Source: Scenedesmus sp. ARA3
Taxonomy: Eukaryota; Chlorophyta; Chlorophyceae; Sphaeropleales; Scenedesmaceae
Length of the DNA stretch: 64,000 nt
Direction of reading: 5' to 3'
NCBI GenBank assembly: GCA_004335835.1
Contig: RWJK01001800.1
Location: forward strand, 1 to 64,000
Both the position numbers and the translations under genes were made by a program. The notes beneath the pieces were generated by a model. The model was not told where the DNA came from. It saw only the letters and a program-made list of their open reading frames with translations, and ran no database searches. Below are positions 11,576-57,146 of this stretch, one piece after another (positions within the stretch are counted from its first letter, which is position 1; each line of letters begins with the position of its first letter).

Positions 11576-12541
11576 CATGCAAGGTTTGCAGAGTCAGCAA
11601 GGAACAGCTGGCTCAGCTGTTGGCAAGGCACCTGTGCATGGCAGGTTTGGTTTAGTTGAGTTGAGGGCGGTAGCAGCTGTATAGCAGCTGCTACCTGCAG
11701 TGTTGTGGCCGTGACAGTTTCTGGGCTTGATGGAAGTGCAGGGATCAGCTGCGGGGAGTCTGATAGCAACAACGTGCATTCTGCTGCCTCGTGGTGCATT
11801 CTTGTTGTCACCAGGGGGGCCGACATCCTACTGGCTAGTCAAATGTTGCTGACCGAGAGCTTGCAGTTTGACATGCACGCGCACATACTTAAATAAATAT
11901 TTCATTACGGTACATTACATGCTCCATTCAAATGAGGAGTGGGAACCCCAGTCAGGAGCCTTACATTCATAAATTTTATGTACAATATGCTTACACTTGT
12001 ATGCAACTTCAGCTTATGCATACACCATAGTACCTGTACCGCTGCACAGGCGTTGCAGCCTGCGGCAGTTGCCGCTTGTTTGGTGATCATCATGACTCAT
12101 GATATCGGATATACACGCTGGCCTTGAGTTGACTAACTTTCTCATTCAGTATGGCGCCAGTGCCTTGTTCACGGCTGTCATGTGCTTGATTCTGGTACCA
12201 TCACAGTTGCTGCTGTATACGTGTATGGCACAGCTTCAGTGATTTGAGCAGAAGAAGGGTTTGCAGTCGTTGGCGGGCTTGCTTTGCTTTTTGTGTTACC
12301 AAGGGGGACGAACTGCTACTGGCTAGTCACAGGCAGCATCAAGCAGCATGATGCTGTGGTGCAGGCTTGCTTTGACTGCATTCGTGGGCCCGGCCTGGCA
12401 GTCTGCTGTTCACGTGCATGGCCTTGTCTTTCTGACCAGAAGGCTTCCGTTTGTTGCGTCCATGACATAACACAATAGCGCACTGCCCAGTTCTCTCTGG
12501 CTCCAAGCCGTTTTTGTTGGTACAACGTTGTGCTTGCGCCA

Positions 12542-12990
12542 CAGGCCGATGATGTGGATCAGCCTGTAGCACTAAATGCCAAGTTGGAGCATCCAACGGC
12601 GTGTTGCTGTACTGGGTGGCAGATGCTCGCCTTGAATTTACCACCCCAGGTTATGCCGTGCTGTGTTCAGCACATATGGTGGCTACGCAGGCGGCCGAGT
12701 TCCAGAGTTTCTGACGCACCACTGTTACAACACATTAGCGCACTAGCACTTCTTGTCTGGCTCCAATCCGTTTTTGTTGGCAAAACGTTATGCTTGCGCT
12801 ACAGGCTGATGATATCGATCAGCCTGTAGCATTGAATGCCAAGTTGGAGCATTTAACGAGGTGTTGCTGTATCAGTTGGCATATGCTGGCCTTGAGGTCG
12901 CCACCTCAGGTTATGCTGTGCTGTGTTCAGCACATCCGGTGGCTGCACACGCGGCCGAGTTCCAGAGTTCTGACGTAACACTGTTACAAC
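12542..12990 (+). repeat. 260-bp tandem duplication, two units
   Basis: Unit 1 begins near 12542 and unit 2 near 12802, both with CAGGCYGATGAT then GATCAGCCTGTAGCA. Differences include several third-position changes when read in the frame of the following exon (for example TAC/TAT and GAA/GAG), which suggests that at least part of the unit was coding. Confidence 0.75.
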
Positions 12991-16603: not shown

Positions 16604-16908
16604 CTGCAGTACTTGTTGTGTCATGACCATCACTGCTTTTGCAATTGGCTGCAAGCTGGACATATTTCTGCCCTAATCAACGCCAAACAAGCCATCAATA
16701 GTGCATTGCTTGACAGCCTGATATTTGCAGCCTATACAAGCACTGCCTGGCATTAAACACCACAGGAAGGCAGTCGTACATACTGCTTGAAGGCTGCCGC
16801 AGTTGCCGCCGCCGCTGCTGCCTTGCCAACAAAGTGGGAGTCCCGCTGCTGCTGCTGCAGCTGCTACAGCCTGCTGCTGCATGCGCTGCATCGTTGCTGC
16901 TGACCCAC

Positions 16909-17562
16909 TCATCGCTGTGCTGGTGTTGCTGCTGCTGCTGCCCCTGCTGACTCAGCCGCTGGCGGCACCACCTTGTCTGCTGCCACCTGCAGCGCCTGCT
17001 GCACCTGCCCGGCAAGTGCAGGGTCTGCTGCCAGCACTGCTTCCTTGACCAATGCATGGCCGCCGCTGCTGCTGGCTCTGCAACTGCTGCCTTACCCTCC
17101 TCTCCTCCTGCTGCTGCTGCTGCTGCAGCAGCAGCTCCCAAAGTCTGCAGCTGCTTGCATTACATCACTGCTGCTGCCCTGCTCATCGAGAGGCTGGTGC
17201 TGCTGCTGCTGACTCAGCCGCTGGCGACACCACCTTATCAGCTGCTTCCTGCATCGCCTGCTGCACCTGCCCGGCAAGTGCGGGGTCTGCTGCCAGCACT
17301 GCCTCTTTAAGCGTGGCCAGGTAAAAGTCCTCCATGTGCTGGCCAAGCGCTGAGCCGTCCACCTGCAGAGAAAGTGCGAAACAAATAAAGTGTTTGTGAC
17401 TGGCTGCGGCTGTGAATGGCGGGGGGTGCCACCCCAGCGCAGAGACGTTGCTCCTGCAGCAGTGCATTAAACCAGGAAATCCACAGGAAAGTGAGGCGCT
17501 GATTCAAGCAATGAAGCCAGATAGAAGTTTATTATGTGCTGCCCCAGCGCTGAACCATTTGC
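16909..17562 (-). repeat. Copies of the last lipase exon
   Basis: The terminal exon starts at 17362 (GSALGQHMEDFYLA). A partial acceptor copy starts at 17562 (GSALGQHIINFYLA). A 3' copy lies downstream at about 16909-17085 (KEAVLAADPALAGQVQQAL, again closing with its own TGA at 16909-16911). Either terminal exon could provide a stop. Confidence 0.8.
17160..17164 (-). terminator. Candidate TGTAA polyadenylation signal of the lipase gene
   Basis: TGTAA on the minus strand about 20 bases after the stop at 17183. Placement fits chlorophyte 3' ends. Confidence 0.4.
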
Positions 17563-20500
17563 CTGCAGCAACACACAGCACCAATGAGTCGACAACAACA
17601 ATGCCAGTGACAAGGCAGCGCTGACATCTACCTGCACACAGCCCGTGGGACGCGCAGCCCATCCTAGGCCAGTGGCATTGACGGGTAGCAAGAACACACG
17701 CAGCATGCCACATGCACACAGCAACGCAGCCAAGCGGCAGGAGTTTGGCGCGCACCAGTGCGTTGAGGATGCTCATCTCATGCTCCTGGATGGCACCAAC
17801 CACTTGCAGGCACTGAAACCAGCACACTCATCAATGCAACACAACAAAAAGCGGCGCACCACAGCGTTGAGGATGCTCATCTCGTGCTCCTGGATGGCGT
17901 CAACAACATACATGCACTGATGCATGCGCAGCAATGCAGCGCAGCGGCAACGCAGCAACAATAACCGTTGGCAACACAAATCAAGCGGCGCACCAGGGCG
18001 TTGAGGATGCTCATCTCGTGCTCCTGGATGGCGTCCACCACGTCCTCCAGCGCTCGCTGCCCCTGAGCCACCTCCAGCGCCTGAGAGGCTAGCTCCTGCA
18101 GCAGCAGCAGCAGCAGCAGCAGCAGGTTTGAGGCGGCGCACAGAACACACACTGCTGGGCCTGAGGCAATATCAGCTGCTCTTGGCCCTGTGACATCTTA
18201 CATTTCAGAGCTGCGTGCAACAGGCCACCTGCTGCATACACCATACACTGCACTGCACGCACAAGCAGCATAAACGTGACAGGTACAAACACAGTATGGT
18301 TGCCTGCTGCTCGACTATGCAGCAGCAGCAGCAGCGCCACTCACCATGACCACCTCGGCCACCTCGCGCCCCTCGCCCAGCACGTCCCTGCTGGCGTCAA
18401 CAAAGGTGAGGCAGCCGCTGCCGTCAAGCCGCACACCCGTGCGCACATGCGCGTAGCCCATCAGCCGCGGCACGCTGCAGCAAGCCACAGTAAAAGCAGC
18501 AACATTGTTGTTGCAATCAGATGTAGGTTTACAAAGTTTGGGTGCTGCACAGTGCGCACGTGCGCGCAGCCCATCAGCCGCAGCACACTGCAGCAATTGA
18601 GAGTAACGAAGCAGTGCAGTTATGTTTAGGACTGCCGTCAAGCCACACACCCCGCGCGTGCGCGTAGCCCATCAGGCGCGGCACGCTGCAGCAATTGATA
18701 GTGACAAAGCAGTGCAGTGATGTTTAGGGCTGCCGTCCAGCCGCACACCCATGGGCTGCGGCACGCTGCGGTGGAACAACAATGCGAAAACAGCTGGCAG
18801 AGCATGTAGCAGCAAGCTGATTCGATGATAGACGACAGCTGATAGGGCATGTCATCATGTACAGAGATCAAGACAGCATCAGCACAGCATGCGCTATTGC
18901 AGCCTTTGGGAGACAGCCACGTACCACATGCATGCTACGTAGCATGGTATACCACAGCTGCGTTGATGGTGCAATGAAAGTGCATAGAGCGCAAAATCAT
19001 TTAGATAGCATCTAGCAATACCTGGGCACGATGTCTGCCTTGTTGGTGATGCGCCAGGCGTCGCCCTTCAGCCGCTCATTGAAGGCGTCAGCAAAGGCCT
19101 TGTTGCCTACGCGCGGCGCGCCGTACGTGTACATGTGCACGCGCCGGCCCGCAGCAGCAGGGCCCCTGCAACGCCGGCACAGCAGCAACAGCAGGCAGCA
19201 GCAGCAGCGGGCAGCGGGCAGCAGCAGCAGCAGCAGAGCCTGGACAGGTGCGGTCATGTTTCATGTTGTAACTACGGTTGTCGGAACAAGCAATGCCCAC
19301 CTCTGTGACAGATGCTGTCATAAGGCCCTCAGCAGCACTCGCCTACCACCCCGCATACTCCCACCATGGGATCACTGTATGCCAGAGTTCAAGCTTTGTG
19401 TTTCTTGCGCAAACTCAGCCCCTCGCCGCGTTTGAAGCAACCTTTCTACAACCATACAGTGCACACCATCACTATACAAACACATGATGTATGCTGCGCC
19501 CCTGCGCCCCGCCAGGTCGTACGTGCACAGCGTGGCCAGCGCACACCACCTGCAACGCCAAGGGTGGACTGCCACACTTGTCAAACCGGATGCGGACCAG
19601 CGATCTTCGCCGCACCTGCGCCCCGCCAGGTCATACGCGCACAGCGTTGCCAGCGCGCCCACAAGGCTGTGCCCCGTGATGAACACAACACTCTTTAAAC
19701 CAACTCAACACCATCTTACGCACCTGCGCCCCGCCAGGTCATACGCGCACAGCGTAGCCAGCGCGCCCCTTAGGCTGTGCCCCGTGACGAAAACAACAAT
19801 CCTTGAAGTATATTCAACCATTTTAGGCACCTGCGCCCGGCCAGGACGTACGCGCACAGCGTTGCCAGCGCGCCCCCGAGGCTGTGCCCCGTGATGAACA
19901 CAACACTTGTCAAACCAACTCGAAGCCATCTTACGCACCTGCGCCCCGCAAGGTCATACGCGCACAGCGTAGCCAGCGCGCCCCCCAGGCTGTGCCCCGT
20001 GATGAACACGTCCCAGGGCTGCTGCGCGCTTGCGTCTGCCGTGAGCTGGTCCACCAGGCGCAGCACCTTGACCTTGACGGAGTCGTAGGCGGTCAGAAAG
20101 CCGCTGTGGACCATGAGCTCCTTGTCTGTTCAGCAGGAGCAGGGATCCAAACGGCAACAAGGTGCATTATTTGATTTGATTGAAAGCCATACAGCTGTTG
20201 GTCAGCCGCTGTGCACCATTAGCTTCCTTGACTATACGGTGGACATAGTTAGAAGAGAAGGTGAGATGCGAAAGAAATTCAGGGGGCATCGGGTTGGCGC
20301 AGCACCTTGACCTTGACGCAGTCGTAGGCGGTGAGGAAACCGCTGTGCACCATCAGCTCCTTGTCTGTTAAAAGTTGCAAAAGGGGGCGCAACACAGCAC
20401 AAGTATAAGTGGTGCATCAGCCGCTGTGTACCATCAGGATCCCCTTGCCTGTAGGAAGAAGGCAAAAGAGGAAAGCAGGCATGCTAAGTGTCCTGCATCA

Positions 20501-22654
20501 GGTTGATTGTTGCAGAGTCGTAGGCGGTGAGGAAGCCGCTGTGCACCATCAGCTCCTTGTCTGTTGGTGGGAGGGAAATGGCAACAAGGTACATGATGTA
20601 ACTCATGTATGATATTTTAAATGCCATGCTTATTAGTGGCTGAGTATACGCTGCTGCGCACCGTCAGCTGCCTTGTCTGTCTACTATTCGTTTGGCAGCT
20701 GTCGCTCACTCACTCTTTTTGAAGGTTGCGAAAGGCAGCGGGATGCTGCCTATGCCCAGGTCCAGCCCCCCTGTGCGCTCCACATGATGCTGACACTATC
20801 AAAACAAAAACCCTAGCCCCTACTTCTGGCAGTCACTCAATCTTTTTGAGGGCCGCGAATGGCAGAGGGTCGGAGTGATGCGATTGTCTGCACTCGAGTC
20901 ACTGAACACCTGCCGTCTACTCTTCTGCAGCGTCACTCACTCTTTTTGAACGTGGCAAAGGGCAGCGGGATGCTGCCAATGCCCAGGTCCAGCCCCCCTG
21001 TGCGCTCTACATGATGTTGAAACTGCTAAAACACAAACCCTAGTCCCTACTTCTGGCAGTCACTCAATCTTTTTGAGGGCCGCAAATGGCAGAGGGGCGG
21101 AGTGATGCGATTGTCTGCACTTGGGTCACTGAACACCCGCCGTCTACTCTTCTGCAGCGTCACTCACTCTTTTTGAACGTGGCAAAGGGCAGCGGGATGC
21201 TGCCAATGCCCAGGTCCAGCCCCCCTGTGCGCTCCACGTCCAGCGTCTGAGGGATGAGGTTGATATCGCTCACAAAGTCCTTCCACTTGACCTGACGGAG
21301 CGCAGCGCAATGAGCAGTGAGCACGATGCGAGTGTGAAACCAAGTCGCTCACAAGGTTCTTCCACTTGACCTGAGGGCAATGCAGCAGCATGCGTAACCG
21401 GAGGGGCCAAGCACACCAGCAGCAGCAGCACCAGCAGCGGCGGGGGCACGGCAGTGAAGGATAGTGCAGTTTGTGACGGCACACCATCAGACTGTGCGCA
21501 TTTCCAGCTTTCCCTGATTGAGCACATGCAGAGCGCACTGTATAACAATGCTGTGCAACTGAAGCAGATCCGTGCAGGCACACCGACCCACCTGCTCCGT
21601 GCCCCTGAAGGCCACCACCACCTCTCGCAGCTCTCTGCTGACATGCACCCACACCTGGCCAGCAGCAGCAGCGGCGGCAGCAGCAGCCATTCTTAGTTGA
21701 GCGGCAGGGATGCTGAGCTGTTTGCCGGCACATGGCAGCGAGCCATACAACAATTGCTGCAGCCTAGCTCACCGACCCTTTACGCATGTGGACGCTGCAG
21801 AAATGCATTGCACACATAAAAACTTGGCAGCTGCAGAAACGGGGGACGCCAAGCCAAGGGACGCTGCGCCGTTTGCTGCATGTCCCATCCAACCTTGGAA
21901 CATGGGCCTGCAGACACCATCACCTGTGTGATGGTGCTGTTGTTTTCATTCTAGCGCCACAGGCCTGAGCTCATCCTTCGCCATGCAGCCAGCCACCGAC
22001 TGCACCCCACCTGGCCAATGCATACCCGCAAACATCCTCACCTGCGTGTCTGGGGTGGGGTTGTCAATGCAGGTCACATGCCTGAACACATCCTGAAAAC
22101 ATCCTCCACCATCCTGCCAGCCACTTACGGACTGCACAACAACCCAGACTGGAGGCCTCACCTGTGTGTCTGTGGTGTTATTCTCGATAAAAGCCACCGG
22201 CCTGAACACATCCTCCACCATGCGCCCAGCAACTGACTGCACCCCACCCGACAACTGCAGGCCGCAGCACACATCCCCACCTGCGTGTCTGTGGTGTTGT
22301 TCTCAATAAAAGCCACCGGCCTGAACACATCTTCCACCATGCGTCCAGCCACTGCCTGCAACCCCACTCCACCCCAGAAAGTTGCAGGCCTGCACACACC
22401 CTCACCTGTGTGTCTGTGGTGGGGTTGTCAATGAACGCCACTGGCCTGAATACATCCTCCACCATGCGCCCAGCCACTCATTTCACTGCACTCCGACCCA
22501 GACCGGAGGGCTCACCTGCGTGTCTGTGGTGGGGTTATCAATGAATGCGATAGGCCTGAACACATCCTCGACCATGCGCCCAGCCACAGACGCCAGCGCC
22601 TTCCAGGCACCAGGCATCTGCTCAGGTGCTAATGTAGGCATGGCTGACTCAGCC

Positions 22655-22690
<36 letters not shown>

Positions 22691-25600
22691 TCTGCTGCGT
22701 CTGTAGTGTCTGCATCTGGTGAGCTGCTGCTTGTGTTGCCTGCTGCTGCTGCTGCCCTGCTGGCGGCAATGCGGGAGATGATGGCCTGCAGGTCTGTCAC
22801 CGGCAACGAGCTGAGCCCCTCAGACTGCGTATGATGTAGCGTTCAGGCGGTTGAACCATCAGCAGCACCAGTGGCAGAGAAACCAAAGCGCGACAGGAGC
22901 AGCGCAGCCAAGGGTTGTCCTGAGGCTACAGCGGCTGAGAATTTGAACACAGCAGCAGCAGCGGCGGGGCTGGCACATGCATCAGCATGGGGTGCGTGCG
23001 CTTGTACGCTGAGCGACATTTCAGAAGCAACCGCTGCATACATCGCTGAAGTGAGACAGCAGCAGCAGCAGCTGTGCGACCAACCTGCACGTAGCTCTTG
23101 ATGTTGCCTGCCGCCTCGTTGACCTTGCCCACCAGGCTCTGCTTGGCGCCCCCAATCGCGTCAGCCTGCTGGCTCATGCCGCGCTGCTGCAGCCGGCCTT
23201 GCAGGCGATCCAGCGCGCCCGTCAGCGTCTGCAGGGCACAAATGACACAAACAAGAGAGCGTGATCAACAGAAAGACAAGTGACAGCAGGCATAATGGTG
23301 GTGCCAGTGCTGAACTGCAGCCGGCCCTGCAGGCGATCCAGAGCGCCCGTCGGCGTCTGCAGGGCACAAATGACACAAACAAGAGAGCGTGATCAACAGA
23401 AAGACAAGTGACAGCAGGCATGATGGTGGTGCCAGTGCTGAACTGCAGCCGGCCCTGCAGGCGATCCAGAGCGCCCGTCAGCGTCTGCAGGGCACAAATG
23501 ACACAAANNNNAGAGCGTGATCAACAGAAAGACAAGTGACAGCAGGCATGATGGTGGTGCCAGTGCTGAACTGCAGCCGGCCCTGCAGGCGATCCAGAGC
23601 GCCCGTCAGCGTTCGCAGGACACAAATGACACAAATACAGAGCGTGATCAACAGAAAGACAAGTGACAGCAGGCATGATGGTGGCGCCCCCAATGGCATC
23701 AGCCTGCTGGCTCAGGCCGCGCTGCTGCAACCGCCCCTGCAGTCGGTCCAGCGCACCGGTCAGCGCCTGCGAGGCAGAAAGGGCATGATGACAGATATCA
23801 TGTAGCAGCAGGCATGATGGTGGTGACAGTGCTACTGAGCCAGCCCCCTGAAAGACATCTGGCGCGCCTGTCAGCGTCTGCAGGACACACAAGAGTGTCA
23901 AACCCGCACGATGTGCGACACGCAGCGTCAGAAAACGTTGACAGTGATGTTTGAATGCAGTCAGGCTGCAGATGCACTGCACGCAAGATGGACACCTGCA
24001 AAGGATTTGCTCCTGGAACCGTTCCACCCAAACATAGGACGAAACACCAAGGGGACGGTACAACAAGCCATGCTGCTTGCAAGGCAGACTCAAAACTATT
24101 TTGTTGGTTCAGCCCGCTCCATACCTGCACTGCCTGCTCTGCTGCGCCCTCAACAACCTGCCCCAGCGCAGGCGCCTTGCCATCTACCGCACTCGCACCA
24201 GCCGCAGCCTTCGCCACAGCCACCACTGCTGCTGTTGTTGCAGCAGCAGCCGCACCCGTCACTGCAGCTGCCGCCTGCTCCGCTGCAGGTGCTACTGCTT
24301 GCTTGACCGTCTCTGCCACTGGTGCTGCTGCTGCTGCCGCCTGTTCCACTACTGGGGCCAATTCTGCCTGGACTGCGCCGGCCTGCGTGTCAAGCGCAGA
24401 GCGCTGAAGATCAGAACAGCATCAGTCCATCAGCTTGTGATCGCTTAGCGTGCTGCCTATGGTACACAACACACCTGATTGTGAAGAAAAACACAGGAAA
24501 AGCATTGCTCTACCATGAAGCAGCTGCAGCCGCACACTGTGCTGTACACACACGTACGCTGGGCTCACATCAACCCAGCCGGCCGGTCTCCGCAAAGGCT
24601 GCTGATGCTGTCCCGCTGGCGCAGTGCTGCTGCCGCCGCTGCTGCTGCTCACCTGTGCACTAAAGCAGCCCGCCACCTCCTCCTGCAGCTCAGCCACAGC
24701 ACAGTGGCACGCTGGGCTGGCAACTAAGCAGTCAAAAGCCGCTGCTGCTGCTGCTGCTGCTCACCTGTGCGCTGAAGCAGCCCGCCACCTCCTCTTGCAG
24801 CTCAGCCACGGCATCCAGCTGCTCCTCAATCACGGCCAGGCCGTTGTCTGGCACAGCAGGCACCTGCGCAGCAAGCAGAGTAGCACAGAGGATTTCATAT
24901 TAGGTGCACCCTGGCGAGGCTGTTGTACCGCACAGCAGGCACGTGCAGCAGCAGCAACCAGGCCACTCATTGTTGTCAGACTGCCTCCAGCTGATCCTCA
25001 AGCACAGCCAGGCCGTTGTCAGGTACAGCAGGCACCTGAAGCAGCAGTGATAGGGCACACATGTGCTGAGGTTCACTGAACACAGCATGTTTAGCTAGCC
25101 AGAGATGCGTGTGCAAGCGGCCTCTGCAGCTCAGCCGCTGCCCGCAGCTGATCTTCAAGCACGCCAGGCAGCTGCTCCTCAATCACTGCCAGGCTGTTGT
25201 CTGGCACAGCAGGCACCTGTGATTACGCAGCAGCAATAGCACGGGGCACATGCTGAGGTTCGCTATAATGCAGGCGGGCAGCTGCCAGAAAAGGGCACAT
25301 CGCAATGTGATCCGCAGATCGCCACCCTCCCTCACCTGCCTGTGTGCCTTTTGCAAATGATGCAGCCAGCTGCTCCCTGCAGAACTGAGGCGAGCCTATT
25401 CTCTAACCAAAAGCCGCATCAGCAGCAGAACATACAGCCACTCATAAGAAAACCAGCCTGTCACCGAAAGCCGACAACCTTGCCAAACGCACCTGCGTAT
25501 CGTCCGCCACAGCTGCTTGCAGCAGCGCCTCGCTGAAAGGCAGGACCACTATCCACACCCATCAAACAAAGCAGATGACCACGCCAAACGCACCTGCGTG

Positions 25601-28490
25601 TTGTCTGCCACAGCCGCTGTCAGCAGCGCCTCGCTGAAGGGCAGGAACTGCGCCGACACGGTCAGGCTGCCCTGCGCGTTGTTGGAGCCTGCAGGGCAGC
25701 ACGGCCAGCAGCAGCGCGGCAGCAGTGAGACCAGTAACAGCACATGTACCCGCCAACACATGCAGGGCTCAATATGATGCAAGCAGATGTGACCTGCAAG
25801 CATGCAGGGTGTGACACACAACGTAGGTAGGCAGCAGCTTAAAGACCACATAGACCAATACAATGCTCGCAGCAGCGCACCCTTGAGCTCCAGCTGCAGC
25901 CGCTGCTCCTGCTGCTCAACCAGAGCAGAAACCGGCAGCATCGCCACGCCCAGGTCCACACATCACACAGCGCAAACAGAGTCCTCGGCATGTAGGCATT
26001 CATTGCTGCAGCCGGCTCAGCAAATGGAGACCTGCCCCAATTCAACACACTAAAAGCACCTCGACATACAAATCTATCAACTACAGCACACCCAGCAAGC
26101 AGCGCACCCTTGAGCTCCAGCTGCAGCCGCTGCCCCTGCTGCTCAATGATTGCAGCCACAGGCAGCATGGCCACGCCCAGGTCCACATCGGATATGAGCT
26201 TGTTCTTGTCGATCACGCGCAACCGCAGCACGTCTTTTTGGGTGTTTGAAACGTACAGCGTGTGCGTTTCTTCGAAGCTGGGGCTGAGCTCGCCCCAGCG
26301 TACTGCGGTGGTGGCGGAGGAGTCGCCCAGCGTGGCGACAACGTAGGGGTCCGAGCCGCCCGTGATCTGCAGCAGCAATGGTGCAGGTTAGAAAGAGTGC
26401 GTCGGCGGAACGCGTTGCCGGGCTGATGAAGGACAACAAGAGCCAAGTTGACAAGTTGTGTAGGATTTGGCAAACCATCTAGCATGCAGACAGCACCCCA
26501 CACCATGATGGTGCGCCATGATGGTGCGCCATGGCATGACGCAGGTGCCCGCAGGACAGCTGGGAGCGTCCCAGATCTACTTGTTTGCATGAGGATAAGC
26601 CCCTTTGCTGAGGCGCACTTGTTTGCATGATGCAGGCAGCTGCATCAGCAGAAGCAGGCAGCACAGCTGACACAAGCCTGCTGCAGTATGTAAGCAGCTG
26701 CATCAGCAGGATCAGGCTGTCCTGCAAGCCGCTCACGTTGACTGCCTTAAGGCCCTCTGCGCCGTGGATGGTCAGCTGCAGCAGGCCAGCAAACGTCGAC
26801 AGCAGGAAGTCCCTGCAGCCAGCAGCCACAGCAGCGGCAAACACACAGTGCGGCATGTCAACCGATCAGCGCATAGCACTGTTTCACAGCAGGCCGGTAA
26901 AGGTGGACAGCAGGAAGTCCCTGCAGCCAGCCGCCATGGCAGCAGCAAAACACAGTGCGGCACGTCAGTGACAGTGCAGCATGTCACTGACAGCCGACTC
27001 TAGCAACGTGCTGCAGCAAACAGGCAGGCAGGCAGGCAGGCAGGGGAGGTGAATGCACGTTGAGCTGCTGGAGCTGCATGCAGGGGGCTGGGCGCCGCAC
27101 ATAGGTGGTGTGCAGCAAGACTTCCAGGAGGAACTGATGTTGCAGCTGCATCACCGGAGTATACCGATGCTTCTACCCGCTGTCAGCCCCAGGAGAGCTC
27201 GTGCAGCTGACCTAGCTGTGTGGTGGCGCCGCTTCGGCAGGCATGCTGCTGCTGCTGCTGCTGCTGCTGCCTGCACTGCTGCAGATCCCTTCCGTGCTGT
27301 CCATCCCAATGCCACTGCCCCGAGCGCTGCGCCATGCACACACGCCCGCACCTGTCTGTGTATGTTACTTGCGTGTCATTTAACAGCACCTCCCGGTACT
27401 GCTGCTCGCTGCCGCTGGGCTCCAAGTAGGCCTGAAAAGCAACTGCAGGCGGAAAAAAAGCAACAAACAGCAGAAGCAGTGGCAGGATCGTGTTGAAGTC
27501 ATTCGAAATAGGCTGTGAAACGCGGTGATTGCTGAGTCATATCAGCAGGGCAGCAGCGGCAGCATCATCATGGCAGCATGCATGAATTCTCTTCCTTGCA
27601 GGACTTGGTGAATGGCTGATACTGGACCGCACACGCGCCTGTAGTTCCTGCAAGATACTGCTGATGAAAAACAGCAAAGTGTGCACATTACAGGGAGGCA
27701 GCCTTGCCAGCAGTTGCCGCCAGCTGCCTGTGTGCATGAAGTGCCACAGTTTGCTGCTGCTGGCCATGCCATCCCTGATTACCGCAGCATTCATTCTATT
27801 CAAAAACTTCAATCTAAAGTGACTGCTGATGTCTGCTGCTTTGTTACAAAGCCTGCTGTAACAGAGCATCCCAGACCTGCAGCAAGCGCGATCGCCAGCG
27901 GCAGGTCAAAGCGTGCGCTTGGGTCCACTTGCTGCGGCGCTGCTGACTCAGCAGCATCCCTGGAGCGTGTTGCTGCTTGCAGGAACTGCAGCCTGCTGCG
28001 CTGCAGCACTTGGGGGAGCTGCAGGGCATGCAGCAGCCAGGAAAGTGTTGGGCAGGGGTTGGGGCATGGTGGCAGCAACAGTCGGCAACAGATGGAGCCA
28101 GCCAGCGAGAACTGTTTGCTGCATGCACTCAAAAGCGGCATAAATCAACTAATATATTCAATCCCAGGCAAGCACAGCACATGGACACTGTCCTTGGCGT
28201 TGATTGATGCACTTGCACAGTGACTAGCTGTCCACAGCATCAGTAGTAGTAGCTTGACGGTGAGTACAGGGCATAGCACCGGCACAGTCACAGCCGTAAC
28301 CTAGTTTGGCATCTTTCTGACATCCTAAGATGTTCCAGGCACCCATGCTGCGTGTTGCGAAGGATCGGCCTGAAATCAAACGCACCTTGGAAGTAACTCC
28401 GCTCCGCTGAGGCGCATAGCTCGGCAGGCAGCCATTCCTTGGCCTTGCTATGCACCCATTCAGCACAATATGGCTGCGTAGCTGCAGCAT
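17183..28490 (-). CDS. C2-domain class 3 lipase (alpha/beta hydrolase), many exons
   Basis: Phase-consistent exons: 27373..27431, 26737..26812, 26108..26366, 25594..25688, 24765..24863, 24125..24403, 23085..23228, 22516..22824, 21592..21717, 21168..21291, 19939..20125, 19022..19165, 18345..18474, 17994..18095, 17183..17362. An upstream exon 27877..28118 (FDLPLAIALAAG) and a possible transit-peptide exon starting at 28490 are less certain; one link between 27877 and 27431 is unresolved. Order of domains: C2 (LTIHGAEGLK, GGSDPYVVATLG, VIDKNKLISDVDLG), Ala-rich linker, then lipase_3 with VVVAFRGTE, nucleophile elbow GHSLGGALATL, YGAPRVGN, NKADIVP (acid) and probable catalytic His in IQEHEM. Family knowledge says class 3 lipases hydrolyse acylglycerols or galactolipids, and C2 domains dock on membranes, often with calcium. 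Plastid targeting is an inference. Eleven of 14 exons from the C2 domain on have partial tandem copies in flanking introns, listed separately. Confidence 0.85.
17745..18045 (-). repeat. Donor-junction array, exon with EHEM catalytic-His motif, 3 copies
   Basis: Exon ends at 17994 (full exon), 17860 and 17756, each reading AIQEHEMSILNA followed by a GTGCGC donor. Spacings are 134 and 104 bp. The two extra copies sit downstream in the intron and are preceded by intron-like sequence. Confidence 0.85.
18420..18790 (-). repeat. Acceptor-junction array, exon starting VPRLMGYAHV, 4 copies
   Basis: Acceptors precede 18474 (full exon), 18587, 18685 and 18765; spacings are 113, 98 and 80 bp. Each copy starts with CGTGCCGCGG-like sequence and truncates after at most about 50 bases. 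The extra copies are all upstream of the full exon, inside its intron. Confidence 0.85.
19490..20030 (-). repeat. Donor-junction array carrying the lipase nucleophile elbow, 5 copies
   Basis: Exon ends at 19939 (full), 19831, 19724, 19616 and about 19502; spacings are 108, 107, 108 and 114 bp. Encoded variants of the elbow are GHSLGG (full exon and first copy), GHSLRG and GHSLVG; the last copy is more decayed and its donor GT is lost. Confidence 0.88.
20085..20690 (-). repeat. Acceptor-junction array, exon starting KELMVHSGFLTAYDS, 6 copies
   Basis: Full exon starts at 20125. Diverged exon-start copies begin near 20230, 20364, 20447, 20560 and 20678. Those at 20364 and 20560 keep 30-60 bases of exon (MVHSGFLTAYDS); the others keep only about 20 bases. 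This is the same exon whose 3' end is amplified at 19490-20030. Confidence 0.8.
20700..21245 (-). repeat. 227-bp tandem array of a donor junction (100 + 127 bp sub-periods)
   Basis: Exon ends with the GTGAGTG donor at 21168, 20941 and 20714, exactly 227 bp apart. Between them, at 21068 and 20841, lie half-copies whose donor GT is changed (CACTCAA on the plus strand). Each 227-bp unit is thus a 100-bp plus a 127-bp sub-unit. The exon part encodes GGLDLGIGSIPLPFATFKK. Confidence 0.9.
21285..21375 (-). repeat. Acceptor-junction duplication, exon starting VKWK
   Basis: The exon start GTCAAGTGGAAG at 21291 is duplicated at 21370, each after an AG acceptor, 79 bp apart. Confidence 0.75.
21915..22615 (-). 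repeat. Donor-junction array, exon end MVEDVFRPxAF...TDTQ, 6 copies
   Basis: Exon ends at 22516 (full exon), 22406, 22281, 22162, 22042 and a decayed copy near 21924; spacings are 110, 125, 119, 120 and 118 bp. The first three extra copies preserve GRMVEDVFRPVAFI, and donors of the form CAG/GTGAGG are kept in most copies. Confidence 0.9.
23180..23890 (-). repeat. 128-bp acceptor-junction array, exon start TLTGALDRLQGRL, 6 copies
   Basis: Exon starts at 23228 (full exon), 23356, 23484 and 23612 are exactly 128 bp apart with near-identical intron between them. Further copies start at 23766 (longer, reaches QQADAIGGA) and 23877. The 23612 copy has its acceptor changed from CAG to CGA. A four-base gap of N lies inside the array. 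Confidence 0.92.
23508..23511. other. Assembly gap (4 N)
   Basis: Four N bases interrupt the 128-bp array. Copy number here may be wrong in the assembly. Confidence 0.99.
24645..25220 (-). repeat. Junction copies around the exon VPAVPDNGLAVIEEQL
   Basis: Full exon 24765..24863. A donor-side copy ends at 24653 (ELQEEVAGCFSAQ). Acceptor-side copies start at 25035 (VPAVPDNGLAVLEDQL) and 25216 (VPAVPDNSLAVIEEQL), plus a short one at about 24942 that has lost its AG. Both ends of this exon are amplified. Confidence 0.82.
25485..25690 (-). repeat. Donor-junction duplication, exon end LPFSEALL..ADNTQ
   Basis: Exon end at 25594 (full exon) and a partial copy ending at 25493 (LPFSEALLQAAVADDTQ); spacing is 101 bp. 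Both are followed by a GTGCG donor. Confidence 0.85.
25870..26200 (-). repeat. Donor-junction duplication within the C2 domain, 227-bp period
   Basis: Exon end at 26108 (full C2 exon) and a half-exon copy ending at 25881, both reading DLGVAMLPV..EQQ.QRLQLELK and followed by GTGCGC. The spacing, 227 bp, equals the period of the array at 20700-21245. Confidence 0.88.
26780..26930 (-). repeat. Acceptor-junction duplication, exon start DFLLSTFxGLL
   Basis: Exon starts at 26812 (full) and 26920 (truncated after GGCCTGCTG); spacing is 108 bp. Each is preceded by GGCTGCAG. Confidence 0.85.
27022..27046. repeat. (CAGG)n microsatellite
   Basis: Six tandem CAGG tetramers within a lipase intron. Confidence 0.9.
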
Positions 28491-29263: not shown

Positions 29264-29507
29264 TCAACCCATCGACCGCTTGGGCTGGGGCAGTGACCCC
29301 CCACTATGCTTGCGCTTCTGCTGCTGCTGCTGCTGCTGGCCAGGGCCGTACTGCTCAGGCAGCAGCCGGGACCGGCCAAAGGAAACAGGCACAGCACCAC
29401 CACCACCGCTGCGGGAAAGAGCAGCTGCACCACCACCACCTGCACCACCGCCTGCTGCTGCTGCTGCAGTCTGGGGCCTTCCAACAGCGCCTGCGCTTGG
29501 CGCACTC

Positions 29508-29539
<32 letters not shown>

Positions 29540-30079
29540 CTTGGTTGCTGGCTCCTGCTTGATCTTTGGCTGCTGCTGCTGTCCTTGAGCTGGCTGCTGA
29601 CCCTTCTGTGGCTGCCCCTGCAGCTGCCCCTTCTGCTGCTGCTGCTGCTGCTGCTGAGCAGGTCCGCCTAATGATGGCGGCGTGGGAGGCACCAGCAAGC
29701 CCAGCAGCAGCTGCTGCTGCTGCTGCTGCTGCTGCAGCTGCTGCTGGCTGCTGCCATCCACAGGCAGTGTCACTCCTAAGCTTCTGCACACCTCAGCACT
29801 CGGCACCACCAGGAACAAATACCAGTCATGGCCACTGCCGTGCAACACACCACCAGCCGCCGCCGCACCCGCTGCTGCTGACTCTGCCGCTGCTTTGGCA
29901 GCAGCAGCAGCATCAGCAACCTTAGGGTTTGGGTGGGCACCCTCAGCTGGCAGTGCCAGCCCCGCTTTGATCTTCACCAGGGCACAGCGCTCCTTCTTTA
30001 CTAGGGTTTGGATAAACCCTGCCAGCTGCCGGGGTTCTGCTGCAGGGTACGGCAAGCGCGGATTGCCTGCCGCCGCCGC

Positions 30080-30121
<42 letters not shown>

Positions 30122-30810
30122 GTCTGGTTGCACCCAGAACAGCCGCCGCTGCTGTGGAGGGTTCTGTTGGTACCACCTCACCGCCTTGTCGATCTTGTGC
30201 CTGCGGCACAGCAGCAGCAGCGTGCGCAGTGTGATGCATAGTTGAGTGGCGGCACGGGTGAGACACCAGAACGCTGAGGCCATGCAGAGAAGCTGCAGTA
30301 GGGCAGCATGCATGAGACCGTAACATCACGATGCTGGTGTGATTGGTTGGTGGTTGATGCAGCTTGTGCCTTGTTTGCCGCAGTGCGTGTCACGCATTTG
30401 TGGGCAGGTTGGCGATGAGACAACCCTTCACAGTCACAGGCCGGGGGCTGACTGTTCATTGCAACGCTGCTGCAGGGCTCAGTGCTGCATTTTTGACTGC
30501 AAGTTCAAGAACGCTAAACCTTAAACTTTTAAGTTCGTATTGTTGCAGGGCTCACCTGAAGTCAGCCAGCAGGTCAAGCGGCAGCTCATGCAATGGGGCA
30601 GTGCCAGCCACCTGCTGCTGCTGCCACTGCTGCTGCTGCTGCTGCTGCTGCTGCTTCTGAGTCTGCAGTGGTCCAGCAGCAGCAGCAGGAGGCGTGACGT
30701 CTGCAGCGCGCGCTTCAACAGCAGAAATGTGCGCCACTTGGCTGTTGACTTTCCACATCCTGCCGCGCCACAGCACACCTGGCTGCTGCTGCTGCCGCTG
30801 CTGCTGCTGC

Positions 30811-30860
<50 letters not shown>

Positions 30861-31530
30861 TTTGAGCTTATCATCATCAGCAGCAGTAGGCTGGTTGTCT
30901 GCGGGGCGCGCCTCAGCAGCGGCAGGGCGCACCAATTGGTAGCTGACCTGCCACATCTTGCCCTGCCATAGCACACCTTCCGGCTGCTGCTGCTGCTGCT
31001 GCGACTGCTGCTGCTTCTGCTCTTGTTTTACAGCTGCTGCAGGAGCTGTGTCATCCGCAGGTGCAGCAGCAGCTGCCTGATGCTGTAGCTTGGGGACTGC
31101 TGCTGCTGCTGCTGGTGGTGGTGGTCTCTGCAAGGCCGGAGGTTCAGCGTGGTTGGTCGCCGCCTTGTGCTGCTGCTGCTGCTGCTGCTGTTGTGTTGCT
31201 GCTGCCTTGTCCTGCTGTATGGCAGCCACTGGCTTTGCTGGGGTGTGTGCCTTGCTGCCTGCACCAGCTGCTGCTGCTGCTGCTGCTCCCGCAGCTGCTT
31301 TCGCTGCCGCTGCTGCTTTCGCTGCCGCTGCATCAGGCTGCTGCTGCACTGCTGGCAGTGGCTTATTGCCTGCTGCTGCCTTGCTGCTGGCTGGTGCCGC
31401 CGCCGCCGCAGCATGCTGCTGCGGCTGCTGCTGCTGCTGCGCAGAGTGTTGCTTTGTGACTGCTGCTGGCGCAGGTGGCCTGCTGCCATCGCTCTTTGCT
31501 GCTGCTGCCGCTGTGGCAGATTCCTGGGTG

Positions 31531-31564
<34 letters not shown>

Positions 31565-32541
31565 GGGCCTGCTTTGTTGTGCTCTGTGCACCATTGCCTG
31601 TCTTGGGGTCTGCAGTGGCTGTTGCTGGTTGGGCACCAGCTGCTACCTGCTGCTGCTTCTGCCCCTGCCCCTGCTGCTGCTGCTTCTGCCCCTGCTGTGC
31701 TGCTGCTGCCCCTGCAGGTTGCTGCACAGTTGGGCCCGCCTTGCCGCTGCCAGCAGCACCTGTCGCTCGAGCACCCGACAGTGTGGCAGCGCCTGGTGGC
31801 GGTGTCTTTTGCTTCTTACTGCCTTCCTTCACTTCACTCTTCTCACTCTTCTCCTTGGTTTCCTTCGTGTGCTTTTTCTTCTCTGCGGTTGCTGTGCCTG
31901 TGGCCTGCTGCACACCAGCTGGCAACTGCTGCTGCTGCTGCTGCTCAGCCTGCTGTGCTGCTGCACCTGCAGGTTGCTGCATGCTTGCGCCACCCTGGCC
32001 GGCGGCGCTCATCGCCCCAGCCCCCGACTGTGCGGCTGTGCCTGGAGACACTGCCTTTTGCTTCTGACTACCCTCCTTACCTTTCTTCTCCTTCTTTTCT
32101 TTCTTGTGCTTCTTCTTTTCTGCTGTGGCTGTCTCTGCTGCTGTTCCTGCGTGTGTGCATGCCTGCTCCTTACCACCAGCTGCAGCAACAGCATCTGCCA
32201 CTGCTGCTGCTGCTGCACCTGCCTGCTGCTTACCCTCATGCTGAGCACCAACAGCTACACCACTACCACCTGCTGCTGCTGCTGCATTGCCAGCGTCCTT
32301 GTCTTTACCAGCTGCTGGCAGCGCTGCTGCGCGTTTTGCAACATGTGGTGTTAGGACCAGTTGCAGCGGCGCGGGCGAGGCAGACCTCGAGCCAAACCCT
32401 GTCAGGTCATCTACCAGGTGCTTCAGCTCATCACCACCAGCAGCAGCAGGAGGGCTGTCATCTTCCTCTTCTGCTGCTGCTGCAGCAGGAGGGCTGTCCT
32501 GGCCCAGAGGCAGCGGCGAGCTCTGACTGCTGGTGATACCA

Positions 32542-32576
<35 letters not shown>

Positions 32577-33033
32577 CAGTGGTGGCAGGGCCGCTGCTGG
32601 AGGTTGCTGCTGGCCTTGCTGCTGCTGCTGACCTTGCTGCTGCTGCAGTTTGGGCTGCAGTTTCATCTTCTTGCGTGGCTTGCTGGCAGCCTGCTGTGCA
32701 GCATCAGCGACACCTGCTGCTGCTGCTGCCGTCTCTGCAGGTGCTACAGGTCGTTGCTCATCTTGCTGCTGCTGCTTCTGCTTCACCTTCTGATGTGGCT
32801 TGGTGCTGCCCTGCTGCGCTGTGCCAGCAGCACCTGCTGCTGCTTCTGCTGCTGCTGCTGGCCCCTCTGCCGGTGCTAGGCGTCGCTGCCCATCCTGCTG
32901 CTGCTGCTGCTGCTGCTGCTGTTGGGGCTTCTGCTTCTGCTGCTTGTGGGGCTTGGTGCTGTCCTGCTGCGCTACATCAGCGCCGCCACCATCAGCAGCA
33001 GAAGGCAGCGCAGGAGCAGCAGCTGGTGGCTTA

Positions 33034-33068
<35 letters not shown>

Positions 33069-33261
33069 CTTGTCTGACAGCTCAGCTGTTGCACCTAGCA
33101 GCTGCTCCTGCTGCTGCTGCTGCTGCTGCAGGTTCTGCTTCTGCTTCTTACCAGGCTTGGTGCTGGCCTGCTGCGCTGCACCAGCACCACCTGCTGCTGC
33201 TGCCGCTGCTGGTGCTGCTGTGTCAACATCCATAGGTTCAGCGTCGTCAGGTGGCGGCTGG

Positions 33262-33293
<32 letters not shown>

Positions 33294-36200
33294 GCCTGAC
33301 ACCTCAGCAGCTGCTGCTGCACATTGCTCCGCATGTTGCTGCTTGTCTTGCTGCTGCTGCAGCTGTGGCTTCAATGCCGCCTTCTTCCGTGGCTTGGTGC
33401 TGCCCTGCTGCGCTGCACCGCTGTCACCTGCTGCTGCTGCTGCTGCCTGCACCAGACCAGCAGCAAGGCGGGTGGCAGCACCCTGGCCAGCAGCAGCAGC
33501 AGCAGCAGCAGCGCCGCCGTGCTCTGCCTCTGCTGTTTTGCCCTTTGCAGCACAAGCCTGCAGCTTCCCTTGCTGCTGCTGCTGCTGCTGCTTGCCCTGG
33601 TGCTGTTCCTGACTGACGGCAGCAGCAGCAGCAGCAGCTGCAGGGGGGTCAGCAGCAGCAGCGGCAGCAGCTTCCGCAGTAGCTGCTGCAGCAGCCTCGC
33701 TCTGCCCTCCTGCTGCAGCTGACGCCTGCCGCTCCGCCACTGTCCCACTACCACCACCAGCAGCAGCAGCAGCAGCAGCAGCTGCAGCAGCAGCACCAGA
33801 CCCCAAGCCCTCCGCCTCAGCGCCCACAACCCCGAGCTCATGTGCTGTCATAAAACCCTGCCCCTGAACCCCAGCCGCCCTGGCATCCTTAAGCCGCTGC
33901 ATGCAGGCCGCCAGATCAGCAGCCCCCAAAACCCCAAACCCTGCCAACTGCAGCAGGTGCGCGGTATAAACCCGCTCTAGCGCCGCATGCAGTGCGCAGC
34001 GCGGCGCCGCGAATGCCGCCCAGTCGAGCACCAGATCGGGGGTTAGCGTGTAGCTAAACCCTGCTCCGGATCTGGCGGCTGCTGAACCCTGCTGAACTCT
34101 GCTGCTGCTGGGGCGTGGCGGCAGGTGTGGCCAGTTCATGAAGGCATTCCAGGCCAGCATGAGCTGGCGCTCTGCGAGGGTGGTGTCTGCCTTTTCGTGG
34201 AAGGCGCGCAGGTCGAACACCTGGTACAGCAGCAGCAGGGTTCGGCAGGGTTCAGCAGCAGCAACACAGGGTTTAGAGAAAAGAAAAGGTCAAGGGTGGT
34301 GTCTGCTTTTTTGGAAGGCGCGCAGGTCAAAATACCTGGCAGCCGGCAGCGTGAGGAGCAGAGTTATCAGTGATTGTCAGCGACAGTTGCTTAGAGGAAT
34401 CACAAACAATGTAGCTCACAGCCAGTGTGGTGTCTGCCTTTTCATACAAGGCGCGCAGGTCAAACGCCTGGCATGCAGCAACACAGGATTCAATTGAATG
34501 GTCAGCCGCACGCCATCACAGGGATATCAAAGCCATGAGCAGCATAAGCAAAAAGGCACGGAAACAGATCCAGCCATGCGCCCACCCACTGGTACTCTTC
34601 GTCACGTCAGCCAGAACAGACCAGCTGGAAGCCAAAGCAAGCACAGATAATGCATAAGATGTTTGCGCTTCCAACCCGCCGCTCACCCGCTGGTACTGTT
34701 TGTCCACGTCATCTTGGTAGCCGCTGCCCAGCTCAGCAGACCCCAGCGCATTGGCGCCCTGGCTGTGATAGTACACCCCTAACCCCCCTCGAGCAGCAAC
34801 AGGGAAGGCCCCTTGGCCCCCTGCAGCCTTGCCAGCAGCAGCAGCAGCAGCAGCAGCCTTGGATCCAGGCTTCAGCGGCGGCTTAGCACCCCGCTGCTGC
34901 TGCTGCTGCTGCTGCTGGCGGCCCTTGTGCGTGGCTGCTGCGGCGGCCTTGGCCGTCGTGCCGCGCTTCCTGCCGCCCTTGCCGTCCGTTGCTGCTGCTG
35001 CTGCTGCAGGGCCTGTCAGATTGGCTGCAGGATTGTTATCTTGAGCCTTCCCAGTTTCCAAGCTGTGCAGCAGCCCTAGCCCAGCGCTGCTGTCACTGAC
35101 TGCGCCACTATCTGGCCCTGAACTAAACCCTGCTGCGCTGCCGTCTGCCCCAGCAGCGGCTAAACCCTGCCGGGCAGCCATGCGGCTCGCGCGCAGCAGC
35201 GGCGCGCCCCAGCTGGGGTTTAGCAGCTGTGTGGCCTGGGGTTTAGCCAGGCCTAGGTCTTTGAGGCGGCGGGGAAGCATGGAGCGACGGTGGAAGCAGT
35301 ACGGCTGCAAGCAGAAGTGTTCACACAGGTGACGAAACAAACAGAAGGTCAGCAGGGTTTCTGGCAGCCTGGCAAGTGATGCAAAAGAGCGATATAAGTG
35401 TTGAGTTGTTGTGAGCAGCGATGCCAGCAGTGCTGCAACAGCAATTTGCATGTGACCAAGCACCTCTGAGGTGGGCAATCCTGCTTAAAGTTCCTGATTT
35501 GAGGGGTTTCCCTTGCAAACAGCACAACACACGCGCCCTGGCTGCTGCCTCAACGCTCAGATAGGCAAACACACTTGCTGCCGTTCTGAGGGTGTTTGCG
35601 AAACGCACACGCTCCCCCTGGCTGCTGCCTCCTCACCTGTTCGTACTCTGCCAGCTCATCATCGCCGCGCCGCCGCCTGTTTGGCTGCTGCTGCTGCTGC
35701 TGCTCAGCGTTGCCGTCCACCCACACCTGCAGCAGCAGCAGCAGCAGCAGACAAACATCAGCAGCAGCACAATATGATGCTTGCTCTTCACCATTCGGAT
35801 CTAAGGGGAAGAGCTGCATGACCAAATCAATGATGTGTTTAACTGCAGCACCATACGGCCAGGTCAAGACAAATGTCTCCTACTGCGAACACCCGCGTAT
35901 CCGGCACATGCACCAAGAACCCAACCACAACTTGAACCCAGCACGTACCACCAGCACCACAACAAACACCTCCATTATGTGGTACATTGTCTCTTTTGTG
36001 GCGTCACATCACACAGGCTACAGGCCGCACCTGATTGCTGCCTGCACCATGTCACACAACACATCCACTCTCCCTTACAGCCAAAGGACTCCAACCAAAC
36101 GAAGTGCCGCACCTGTATGCTGCCAGCATCAGGGCAGCAGCAGCCCAGCTTATCATGGCTGCAGGCCATGTGCGCCGGGACCAGACATGTCCCCTTCTGC

Positions 36201-36820
36201 CAACACCTGCATCGCTTGCACATCTACAAATACCCAACCATAATCAGCTTAACGCAACAGAACTTCAACCGCAGAAGCCAAGTGTCGCACCTGTATGCTG
36301 TTAGCATCAGGGCAGCAGCAGCCCAGCTTGTCATGGCTGCAGGCCATGTGCGCCGCCAGCGCCGCCACACTGCCAAACATCTGGCAGCACAGCGGGCAGC
36401 GCCCCTGCAGCTGCACGCTCAGCTTCAGCACCTCCCCTGCTGCTGCTGCTGGTGGTGGGGCCCGGCTGCGCGAGCTCTTGCTGCTGTGCCTGCTGCGCGG
36501 AGGCTGCGGCCGCGCAGCAGCAGCAGCAGCAGATGATCCAGGGGCCCCAGGGCCATACAACAGATCCATGTTGAAGGAGCGGCGCGAGAACGGCTCGTCC
36601 AATGCTGCTGCTGCTGACCCTCCTGCTGGTGCTGCAGCGGCAGCGGCAGCGCCAGCGCCTTCGACAGGCATGTCCTGCTGCTGCTGCTGCTGCCGTGGCA
36701 GTACTAGTTGCAGCTTCAGCGCCAGTGTCACCTCCTGCCATGTGAACAGCTCAGGGGAGGGCACATCAGGCGGGCAGGGCACCACGTGCAGGTACGTCTC
36801 ACTGCGCTCCTCACCACCAC

Positions 36821-36867
<47 letters not shown>

Positions 36868-37162
36868 GGTTGTGCTTGCAGTGGGTCCTGCTGCTGCTGC
36901 TGCCGCTGCAGGCCGTGGCTGCTGCCGCTGGTTTGCGAAGTTGCTGGACCACCAGCAGCAACAGCAGCTGCTGCTGCTGCTGGGGCTGCTGCTGCTGCTG
37001 CAGGGGGGGCTGCTGCTGCTGGGGCCCCAGCAGCTGGCTCGCTGCGCACCCACCAGGTGGCAGTCTGTGCAGCAGCAGGCAGCAGGCTGATGGTGCCACC
37101 AGCTGCACAGCACAGGCCCTGCACTGCTGGACCTAACCCACCACCTGCCGGCTGTCGCTGCC

Positions 37163-37195
<33 letters not shown>

Positions 37196-37572
37196 TGCTG
37201 CTCTGGGGATCGCCTTGAACAGCAGCATTTGGCAGCAGCGGCAGGGCTGCCCACATGACAGGCAGTATGCCATCTGGCCACAGCTCCTGCTGCTGCTGCT
37301 GCTGCTGCTGCTGTGGGCTGCTGTTGCCGCTGCTGCTGTCGCAGGTGGAGCTGGGCAGCACTGTTTTGCTGCGCTGCGTAGGCCACAGCCCAAACCACCT
37401 GCCCCCTTCCAGGGTACTTATGATGTGGCGGCCTGCAGGAACAGCAACAGGCCTGCTGCTGCTGCTGCTGCCATCGGCGGCTGCAGCACCTGCTGCTGGC
37501 CGCTTGCGCTTACCGCCAAGTGCTGCTGCTGCTGCTGCTGCTGCTGGATCTTGCGCACTGCTTGTGCCTTGC

Positions 37573-37604
<32 letters not shown>

Positions 37605-37704
37605 GCCGCCCAGCACGCCAGCAGCAGGAGCAAGCTCGTTCATCATCAGCAGCAGGTGGGGATTGACCATACCCTGAAGCCCACCCGGTGGCAGCAGCAA
37701 GCCG

Positions 37705-37742
<38 letters not shown>

Positions 37743-56980: not shown

Positions 56981-57146
56981 TTGTCAAGCCTTGTGTGCAA
57001 TGACAATGTAGCATACAAGTATTGTGAGACCGCCACAAAGTCTGATGCAGATTTGTGTGTGAGCTATCAACCGTGCGTTGAACGCCCACATATTGCGCCG
57101 CGGACTCCACTGCTCTGAGCGATGGCGGTTCAAACTCAGATGACAG

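Follow-up and report, generated by a model that had tools for sequence, protein, structure and literature searches.

The window, which is the whole stretch of DNA analysed and comprises the first 64,000 positions of one contig in an assembly of 87.27 Mb and 1567 contigs, contains a minus-strand gene whose product carries a C2 domain and a Lipase_3 domain. The part of the gene studied here (16845..26967) has 14 exons. These were set by eye from the sequence and then checked with a spliced alignment of the orthologous protein P0001 from Scenedesmus sp. NREL 46B-D3, the best match to the lipase at 79% identity. In this alignment, 13 of the 14 exons were reproduced exactly and exon 14 was shortened; the exons placed upstream of exon 1 were unreliable. 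The joined reading frame could be aligned with eight proteins from green algae and metagenomes. A home-made gene finder was dropped, since it strayed towards tiny exons within CAG repeats and labelled many of the partial copies as exons. The layout of the gene is as follows, with the basis of each assignment in brackets:

16845..26967, minus strand: part of the lipase gene with exons 1–14 and partial copies (sequence, orthologue alignment, edge probes)
26887..26967, minus strand: copy of the exon 1 acceptor edge, 108 bp upstream (edge probes)
26737..26812, minus strand: exon 1 of the part studied (P0001 spliced alignment)
26108..26366, minus strand: exon 2, C2 domain (P0001 spliced alignment)
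25871..25960, minus strand: copy of the exon 2 donor edge, 227 bp downstream (edge probes, DNA search)
25594..25688, minus strand: exon 3 (P0001 spliced alignment)
25467..25545, minus strand: copy of the exon 3 donor edge, 101 bp downstream (edge probes)
24980..25242, minus strand: two copies of the exon 4 acceptor edge, at 24980-25046 and 25155-25242 (edge probes)
About 79 bp upstream of exon 4, minus strand: third, weak copy of its acceptor edge (edge probes)
24765..24863, minus strand: exon 4 (P0001 spliced alignment)
24626..24701, minus strand: copy of the exon 4 donor edge, 112 bp downstream (edge probes)
24125..24403, minus strand: exon 5, without spanning copy (P0001 spliced alignment, edge probes)
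23302..23889, minus strand: five copies of the exon 6 acceptor edge, spacing 111-154 bp, with a 4-N run inside (probes)
23085..23228, minus strand: exon 6 (P0001 spliced alignment)
22516..22824, minus strand: exon 7 (P0001 spliced alignment)
21905..22477, minus strand: array of the exon 7 donor edge, four matches of which three run across the edge, spacing 110-125 bp
21592..21654, minus strand: exon 8, without spanning copy (P0001 spliced alignment, edge probes)
21345..21377, minus strand: short copy of the exon 9 acceptor edge, 79 bp upstream (repeat search)
21168..21291, minus strand: exon 9 (P0001 spliced alignment)
20706..21010, minus strand: copies of the exon 9 donor edge, 227 and 454 bp downstream (edge probes)
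20296..20597, minus strand: copies of the exon 10 acceptor edge, at 20296-20369 and 20515-20597 (edge probes, DNA search)
19939..20125, minus strand: exon 10, GHSLGG motif (P0001 spliced alignment)
19497..19901, minus strand: four copies of the exon 10 donor edge, three across the edge, spacing 107-114 bp
19022..19165, minus strand: exon 11, without spanning copy (P0001 spliced alignment, edge probes)
18552..18750, minus strand: two copies of the exon 12 acceptor edge (edge probes)
18345..18474, minus strand: exon 12 (P0001 spliced alignment)
17994..18095, minus strand: exon 13 (P0001 spliced alignment)
17750..17907, minus strand: two copies of the exon 13 donor edge, one across the edge by at least 8 bases
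17183..17362, minus strand: exon 14, last coding exon, with stop codon (sequence, edge probes)
16845..17046, minus strand: copy of the end of exon 14 across the stop codon, 262-274 bp downstream (edge probes)

Copies spanning exon edges were sought with probes of ±60 bp per edge and a threshold of 44, the best score among 300 triplet-shuffled probes being 43. Copies were found across 12 of the 27 splice edges, belonging to ten of the 14 exons (1, 2, 3, 4, 6, 7, 9, 10, 12, and 13), and the stop codon of exon 14 is spanned by one downstream copy; for exons 5, 8, and 11, these probes detected no spanning copy. A preliminary description of this locus had reported copies for 11 of 14 exons. The edge probes confirm that count, although the boundary copied in exon 14 is its stop codon rather than a splice junction, and this stop edge is left out of the splice-edge counts below. 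When the probe was set to 80 bp and the threshold tightened, copies appeared at 13 of the 27 splice edges, with 1 to 5 copies per edge. The nearest copy lies at 79-134 bp for nine of these 13 edges, and for the remaining four at 227, 227, 354, and 435 bp. Arrays with units of 98-227 bp were independently reported in the lipase gene by Tandem Repeats Finder.

One copy of the exon 4 acceptor extends over 97 of the 99 exon bases, and, as read by eye, the GHSLGG motif of exon 10 is altered in two copies and some copies seem decayed. The sole run of N in the 64-kb window, four N at 23508-23511, lies within the array of exon 6 acceptor copies. Copies of inner exon edges were not seen by eye in the eight aligned lipase relatives. 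In one of these lipases, P0005 from Monoraphidium minutum, a stretch of 32 residues is repeated in tandem (31 of 32 identical) within the last 75 residues, in the region matching exon 14; this is possibly the same process in a related family, or a decoy swallowed by the annotation.

Elsewhere in the window, there is a 260-bp tandem duplication with 84% identity (12469-12990), which is not assigned to an exon. The region 29500-38000 is rich in CTG/CAG triplets and includes a minus-strand open frame of 1245 codons (30555-34289) with no Pfam match at E 0.001. Leucine-rich repeat open frames lie on the plus strand within 55006-60760 (55006-55956, 57392-58660, and 60173-60760), and a minisatellite with five copies of a 22-bp unit occupies 63536-63644. 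Rfam gave no match above its cut-offs in the 64-kb window.

Copying of half-exons, which is confirmed for the lipase gene, is not confined to it. Chaperonin (PF00118) genes were picked by homology and not by repeats, and many of their loci contain local repeats with matching spacing. Using exact exon maps for the lipase, CCT-epsilon, and CCT-beta genes, we found spanning copies at 28 of 73 splice edges (13/27, 9/24, and 6/22, respectively); under a laxer rule, which asks for a repeat of the exonic side no more than 35 bp from the edge, the number of affected edges rises to 36 of 73. The 28 edges carry 51 copies, and the rule that donor-side copies lie downstream and acceptor-side copies upstream holds for every one of them (25/25 and 26/26). 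The rule follows from geometry, since a tandem copy of a junction has to fall in the intron. The cleanest array was found at the donor edge of CCT-epsilon exon 11, with six extra copies at a spacing of 107-108 bp (locus L059, 2075-2798; locus L065, 548-1271).

A further sample consisted of 61 exons of other chaperonin, kinase, and lipase genes, with edges taken from profile matches only; excluded were presumed copies (two on contig C1492), matches under 100 bp, matches containing missing bases, nested matches, and the contigs of CCT-epsilon and CCT-beta. In these genes, the first 50 exon bases were copied upstream in 13 of 61 cases and downstream in 0 of 59. For the last 50, copies lay downstream in 13/59 cases and upstream in none of 61. 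Mid-exon probes matched in 2/61 and 4/59. Copies of exon starts and ends numbered 11/23 and 8/21 for chaperonins, 2/30 and 5/30 for kinases, and 0/8 and 0/8 for other lipases, none of the eight exons of other Lipase_3 genes having a copy; the density thus varies by gene. In a random sample of eight 10-kb pieces from contigs with kinase or lipase matches, local repeats made up 7,094 of 80,000 bases, with a range of 1.5-28.7% per piece.

The chaperonins also bear on the identity of the alga. The CCT-beta translation (contig C530) shows no difference from Tetradesmus obliquus (T. obliquus) protein P0241 over 528 residues; the mismatch at its first few residues stems from incorrect placement of the first exon. 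Apart from an insertion of 15 residues, CCT-epsilon (contig C1032) and T. obliquus P0121 are identical over 535 residues. Judging from these two proteins, we infer that the genome is that of T. obliquus or a very close relative.

When three exons were used for DNA searches of the whole genome, considering the best candidates and skipping simple repeats, the partial copies lay no more than roughly 0.5 kb away from their source exon. Away from the source exon, these searches gave one match only, to a paralogue, and they revealed no second allele in this assembly.

A distance of 80-160 bp separates 106 of the 143 nearest-copy pairs taken from largely non-overlapping loci; the histogram omits seven overlapping loci, pairs starting in window 29-38 kb, and pairs with fewer than 40 aligned bases, and one pair is counted twice via the overlapping loci L059 and L062. 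In the three mapped genes, 21 of 28 edges have their nearest copy at a distance of 79-151 bp, and at these 21 edges the exonic share of the spacing has a mean of 0.40 and an sd of 0.11 (KS p=0.001 versus uniform). As short exonic parts are less detectable, the safe part of this result is the shortage of long exonic parts. For several copies the aligned length is smaller than the spacing, and hence not all of them are clean head-to-tail units. Clear head-to-tail arrays are those of CCT-epsilon exon 11 and lipase exons 6 and 10.

Detectable units, the extent of which is approximate due to padding, account for about 40%, 28%, and 25% of intron bases in the three genes, so the introns have been lengthened. 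The earlier proposal that this genome lengthens introns by junction duplication is therefore supported in part: the tandem junction copies are real and occur in several chaperonin and kinase genes as well. The accompanying idea that such duplications either create or lengthen introns stands for lengthening but not for new introns arising via AGGT sites. No intron newly formed from a duplicated exonic segment was found in the three genes, where the copies lie inside introns flanked by orthologue-supported exons. Even with the known units masked, introns were still nearer in sequence to their own exon edges than other introns were (mean percentile 0.72, n=72, p=2.3e-7), a value that includes the contribution of copies missed by the mask. 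A published mean intron length of 462 bp in T. obliquus UTEX 393, compared with 230, 302, 284, and 270 bp in four green algae (PMC5966456), fits such lengthening without proving its cause.

We compared the frequency of repeats at exon edges with that in the rest of the introns. Intron probes outside junction-derived units matched in 9 of 108 cases versus 28 of 73 edges (odds ratio 6.8, p=1.3e-6). Taking all intron probes, copies included, the rate of 85/209 does not differ from that of the edges (p=0.78), because the introns contain the copies. The possibility raised at the outset, that copies are equally frequent away from junctions, is thus contradicted in the three genes for positions outside the units and holds when all positions are counted. 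In a repeat graph of these genes, every one of 35 families included an exon edge, as did 33 of 33 when the threshold was tightened, and none of the 35 was intron-only or exon-internal; an intron repeat in contact with an edge family may, however, be drawn into it by the linking. Clustering done separately yielded 14 clusters outside masked units, 13 of which link to an exon or a unit and one to neither. Minisatellites would have units independent of exons, which is at odds with the 35 families, the one unlinked cluster being the exception.

These data have to be weighed against plain survivorship, by which random duplications occur everywhere, those internal to exons are purged, and those at edges, at stop codons, or in introns survive, junctions not being favored. 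The equal rate over all intron positions agrees with such a scheme, as does the copy across the exon 14 stop codon, which indicates that coding/non-coding boundaries other than splice sites can also be duplicated. Exonic halves may, moreover, remain detectable longer. If all 14 clusters are taken as intron-only, their shortage relative to the available space has p=0.001 at equal detectability, but if intron-only repeats are half as detectable the edge excess is not significant (p=0.21). On the other hand, 13 of the 14 clusters are tied to an exon or junction-derived unit, and the absence of intron-only families contrasts with a share of edge families of only 42-59% expected from the available space (our own arithmetic from placements). 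The position of the junction near the middle of the unit at the 21 edges is a further difficulty, as poor detection could explain only the lower tail of that distribution. We therefore regard anchoring on exon edges as likely, though not proven, and survivorship by itself as unlikely.

Searching for copies by their exonic part alone gave 60 matches at 29 edges. Of the donor copies, 31 of 32 retained GT, and 25 of 27 acceptor copies retained AG (56/59 together), which bears out the view that decoy splice sites are left behind. The splice motifs matched at 0.90 and 0.92, whereas the next intron bases matched at only 0.46 and 0.47 in ungapped comparisons, values that are depressed by small insertions and unit ends. 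Differences between copy and exon were distributed over the codon positions as 46/35/168, with 156 synonymous and 93 non-synonymous changes, without stop codons but with 13 frameshifting gaps; an earlier set of 40 copies contained one stop codon. For lipase codons, a non-synonymous:synonymous ratio of 2.4-2.9 is expected without constraint, and we estimate about 1.3 for a dead copy compared with a constrained exon. Within arrays, copy-specific changes were distributed as 20/20/38 (33 synonymous, 43 non-synonymous); those by which the exon differs from every one of its copies were distributed as 1/0/8. This indicates constraint on the true exon and partial constraint on the copies. Owing to the relatedness among copies, these substitution counts are not independent. 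The exonic parts of the copies look more coding-like than dead DNA, and simple dead copies do not explain this.

Two cases in CCT-epsilon point in opposite directions. The six related copies of the exon 11 array have 8 non-synonymous versus 4 synonymous changes and look unconstrained; the copy of the exon 7 donor has 0 non-synonymous and 10 synonymous changes, and its intron is unrelated. A reading that fits both cases is that some copies are former functional exon ends of a diverged allele, moved by unequal exchange. Gene conversion from the true exon alone was rejected, as it leaves the synonymous bias unexplained.

Selection for function might account for the coding-like character, the half-exons acting as back-up or competing splice sites or as alternative, sometimes translated, exon parts. 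The retention of GT and AG next to poorly matching intron, the third-position bias, and the absence of stop codons from the exonic-similarity set are all in line with this, and in the set of copies chosen to match across the edge donor strength is near that of true donors (6.32 versus 6.88). Acceptors in that set are weaker (4.33 versus 5.86), however, and have lost the AG in 4 of 26 copies. The homology comprises one exon edge and usually only part of the exon, the second splice site being absent from each copy, and the distances of the 51 copies from their edges are random modulo 3 (17/17/17), so that in-frame use is not under selection and was rejected. The frameshifting gaps, the single stop codon of the earlier set, the altered motifs in two exon 10 copies, the decayed appearance of some copies, and the excess of non-synonymous changes in the CCT-epsilon exon 11 array likewise speak against function, which we hold to be quite improbable. 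An assembly artefact, in which diverged haplotypes were joined so that the exon end of one follows the full exon of the other, would suit the allele-like copies with unrelated introns and synonymous changes only, such as that of the CCT-epsilon exon 7 donor, as well as the 4-N run inside one array; one relative is likely diploid, and two strains show a twofold difference in assembly size (PMC7955037, PMC5552973). Yet from two haplotypes one would expect neither arrays of five to six copies with fairly regular spacing nor copies of differing divergence, and the 64-kb window has just four N. An artefact is also hard to reconcile with T. obliquus CCT-epsilon record P0121 in UniProt, which carries a variant copy of the same array. 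Its 15-residue insertion resembles a copy of the exon 11 end and is lacking in three other algae (536 residues); it is one residue off the assembly copy at +323 and matches no copy here exactly. The insertion is most simply explained as a gene-model error, and it suggests that the exon 11 array is present and variable in another T. obliquus sequence. An artefact thus seems very improbable to us.

The mechanism that we consider probable combines tandem duplication with unequal exchange, exon ends serving as anchors. Segments of about 80-150 bp that cross exon edges would be duplicated in tandem, producing local copies of exon ends together with their splice sites, and further duplication and unequal exchange would cause the arrays to grow and turn over, the exonic half providing a conserved stretch of homology. 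Such a process would account for families that include an exon edge, for the regular spacing of arrays, and for exonic parts that outlive intronic ones. Under exon definition, a true exon is flanked by two splice sites, and the copies are flanked by one. Half-exons would be tolerated for this reason: a copy with a single splice site would not be seen as an exon, would remain unused in RNA, and would be removed along with the intron. The outcome would be longer introns full of decoy half-exons. Part of the exchange may have taken place between diverged alleles, and diploidy with separated alleles is likely for a relative (PMC7955037). Alternatively, duplication might be aimed at junctions, for example with a pre-mRNA fragment as template or through DNA breaks at splicing sites, giving edge-centered units of about 80-150 bp, with the half-exons selected as spare splice signals; we think this quite improbable.

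The repeats share features with several known systems. Mutually exclusive exon duplicates are whole exons with two splice sites and are usually frame-compatible. The copies described here resemble tandem exon duplications in that exon sequence is duplicated within introns, but they are half-exons with one site and in random frame; they cover one edge and have offsets of 17/17/17, and so do not qualify as cassette exons, which require both splice sites and a compatible frame. Introners are related copies dispersed into many genes. With them (PMC9860276), the repeats have in common a gain of intron sequence that recurs across a genome, but the copies here resemble their own exon. No single sequence was found in many unrelated introns in the three-exon genome search, in which copies lay beside their source and in one paralogue. 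What is present instead are local direct copies with an exon edge and flanking intron, 51 of them at 28 of 73 edges, as expected for tandem duplication of a boundary.

A close precedent is the potato RdRp gene, in which a tandem duplication across an intron–exon boundary made a new intron (PMC4974935). There, too, the duplicated unit contained the 3' side of the intron, the splice site, and the start of the exon; in contrast to that one gene with one intron created, 28-36 of 73 edges in three genes are affected here, on both sides and in repeated rounds, with no new intron seen. As in the work of Hellsten 2011, described in PMC4974935, splice sites are supplied by tandem duplication, but there an exonic segment was converted to an intron, whereas here the segments already straddle the intron edge and only extend the intron. 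In fission yeast, a 24 bp exonic AGGT segment underwent multiple tandem duplication in two genes (PMC4974935). Several intronic tandem copies with splice signals are common to both cases, the units being short and exonic in fission yeast, and junction-spanning and 80-150 bp long here. The open-licence literature yielded descriptions of single cases only and none of a comparable density of junction copies, and the words intron, exon, and tandem are absent from the main text of PMC7590803 and PMC12571836.

The arrays would offer a natural test of how the spliceosome chooses the true site among near-identical ones. They help to explain faulty automatic gene models, such as the T. obliquus chaperonin record with its decoy-like insertion, and they warn that resemblance to an exon, even next to a good splice site, should not be taken as evidence for one. 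Should the genes sampled prove representative, copies of neighboring exon ends would make up much of the intron sequence of this alga, and their accumulation would represent a concrete, testable, and transposon-free route to intron growth.
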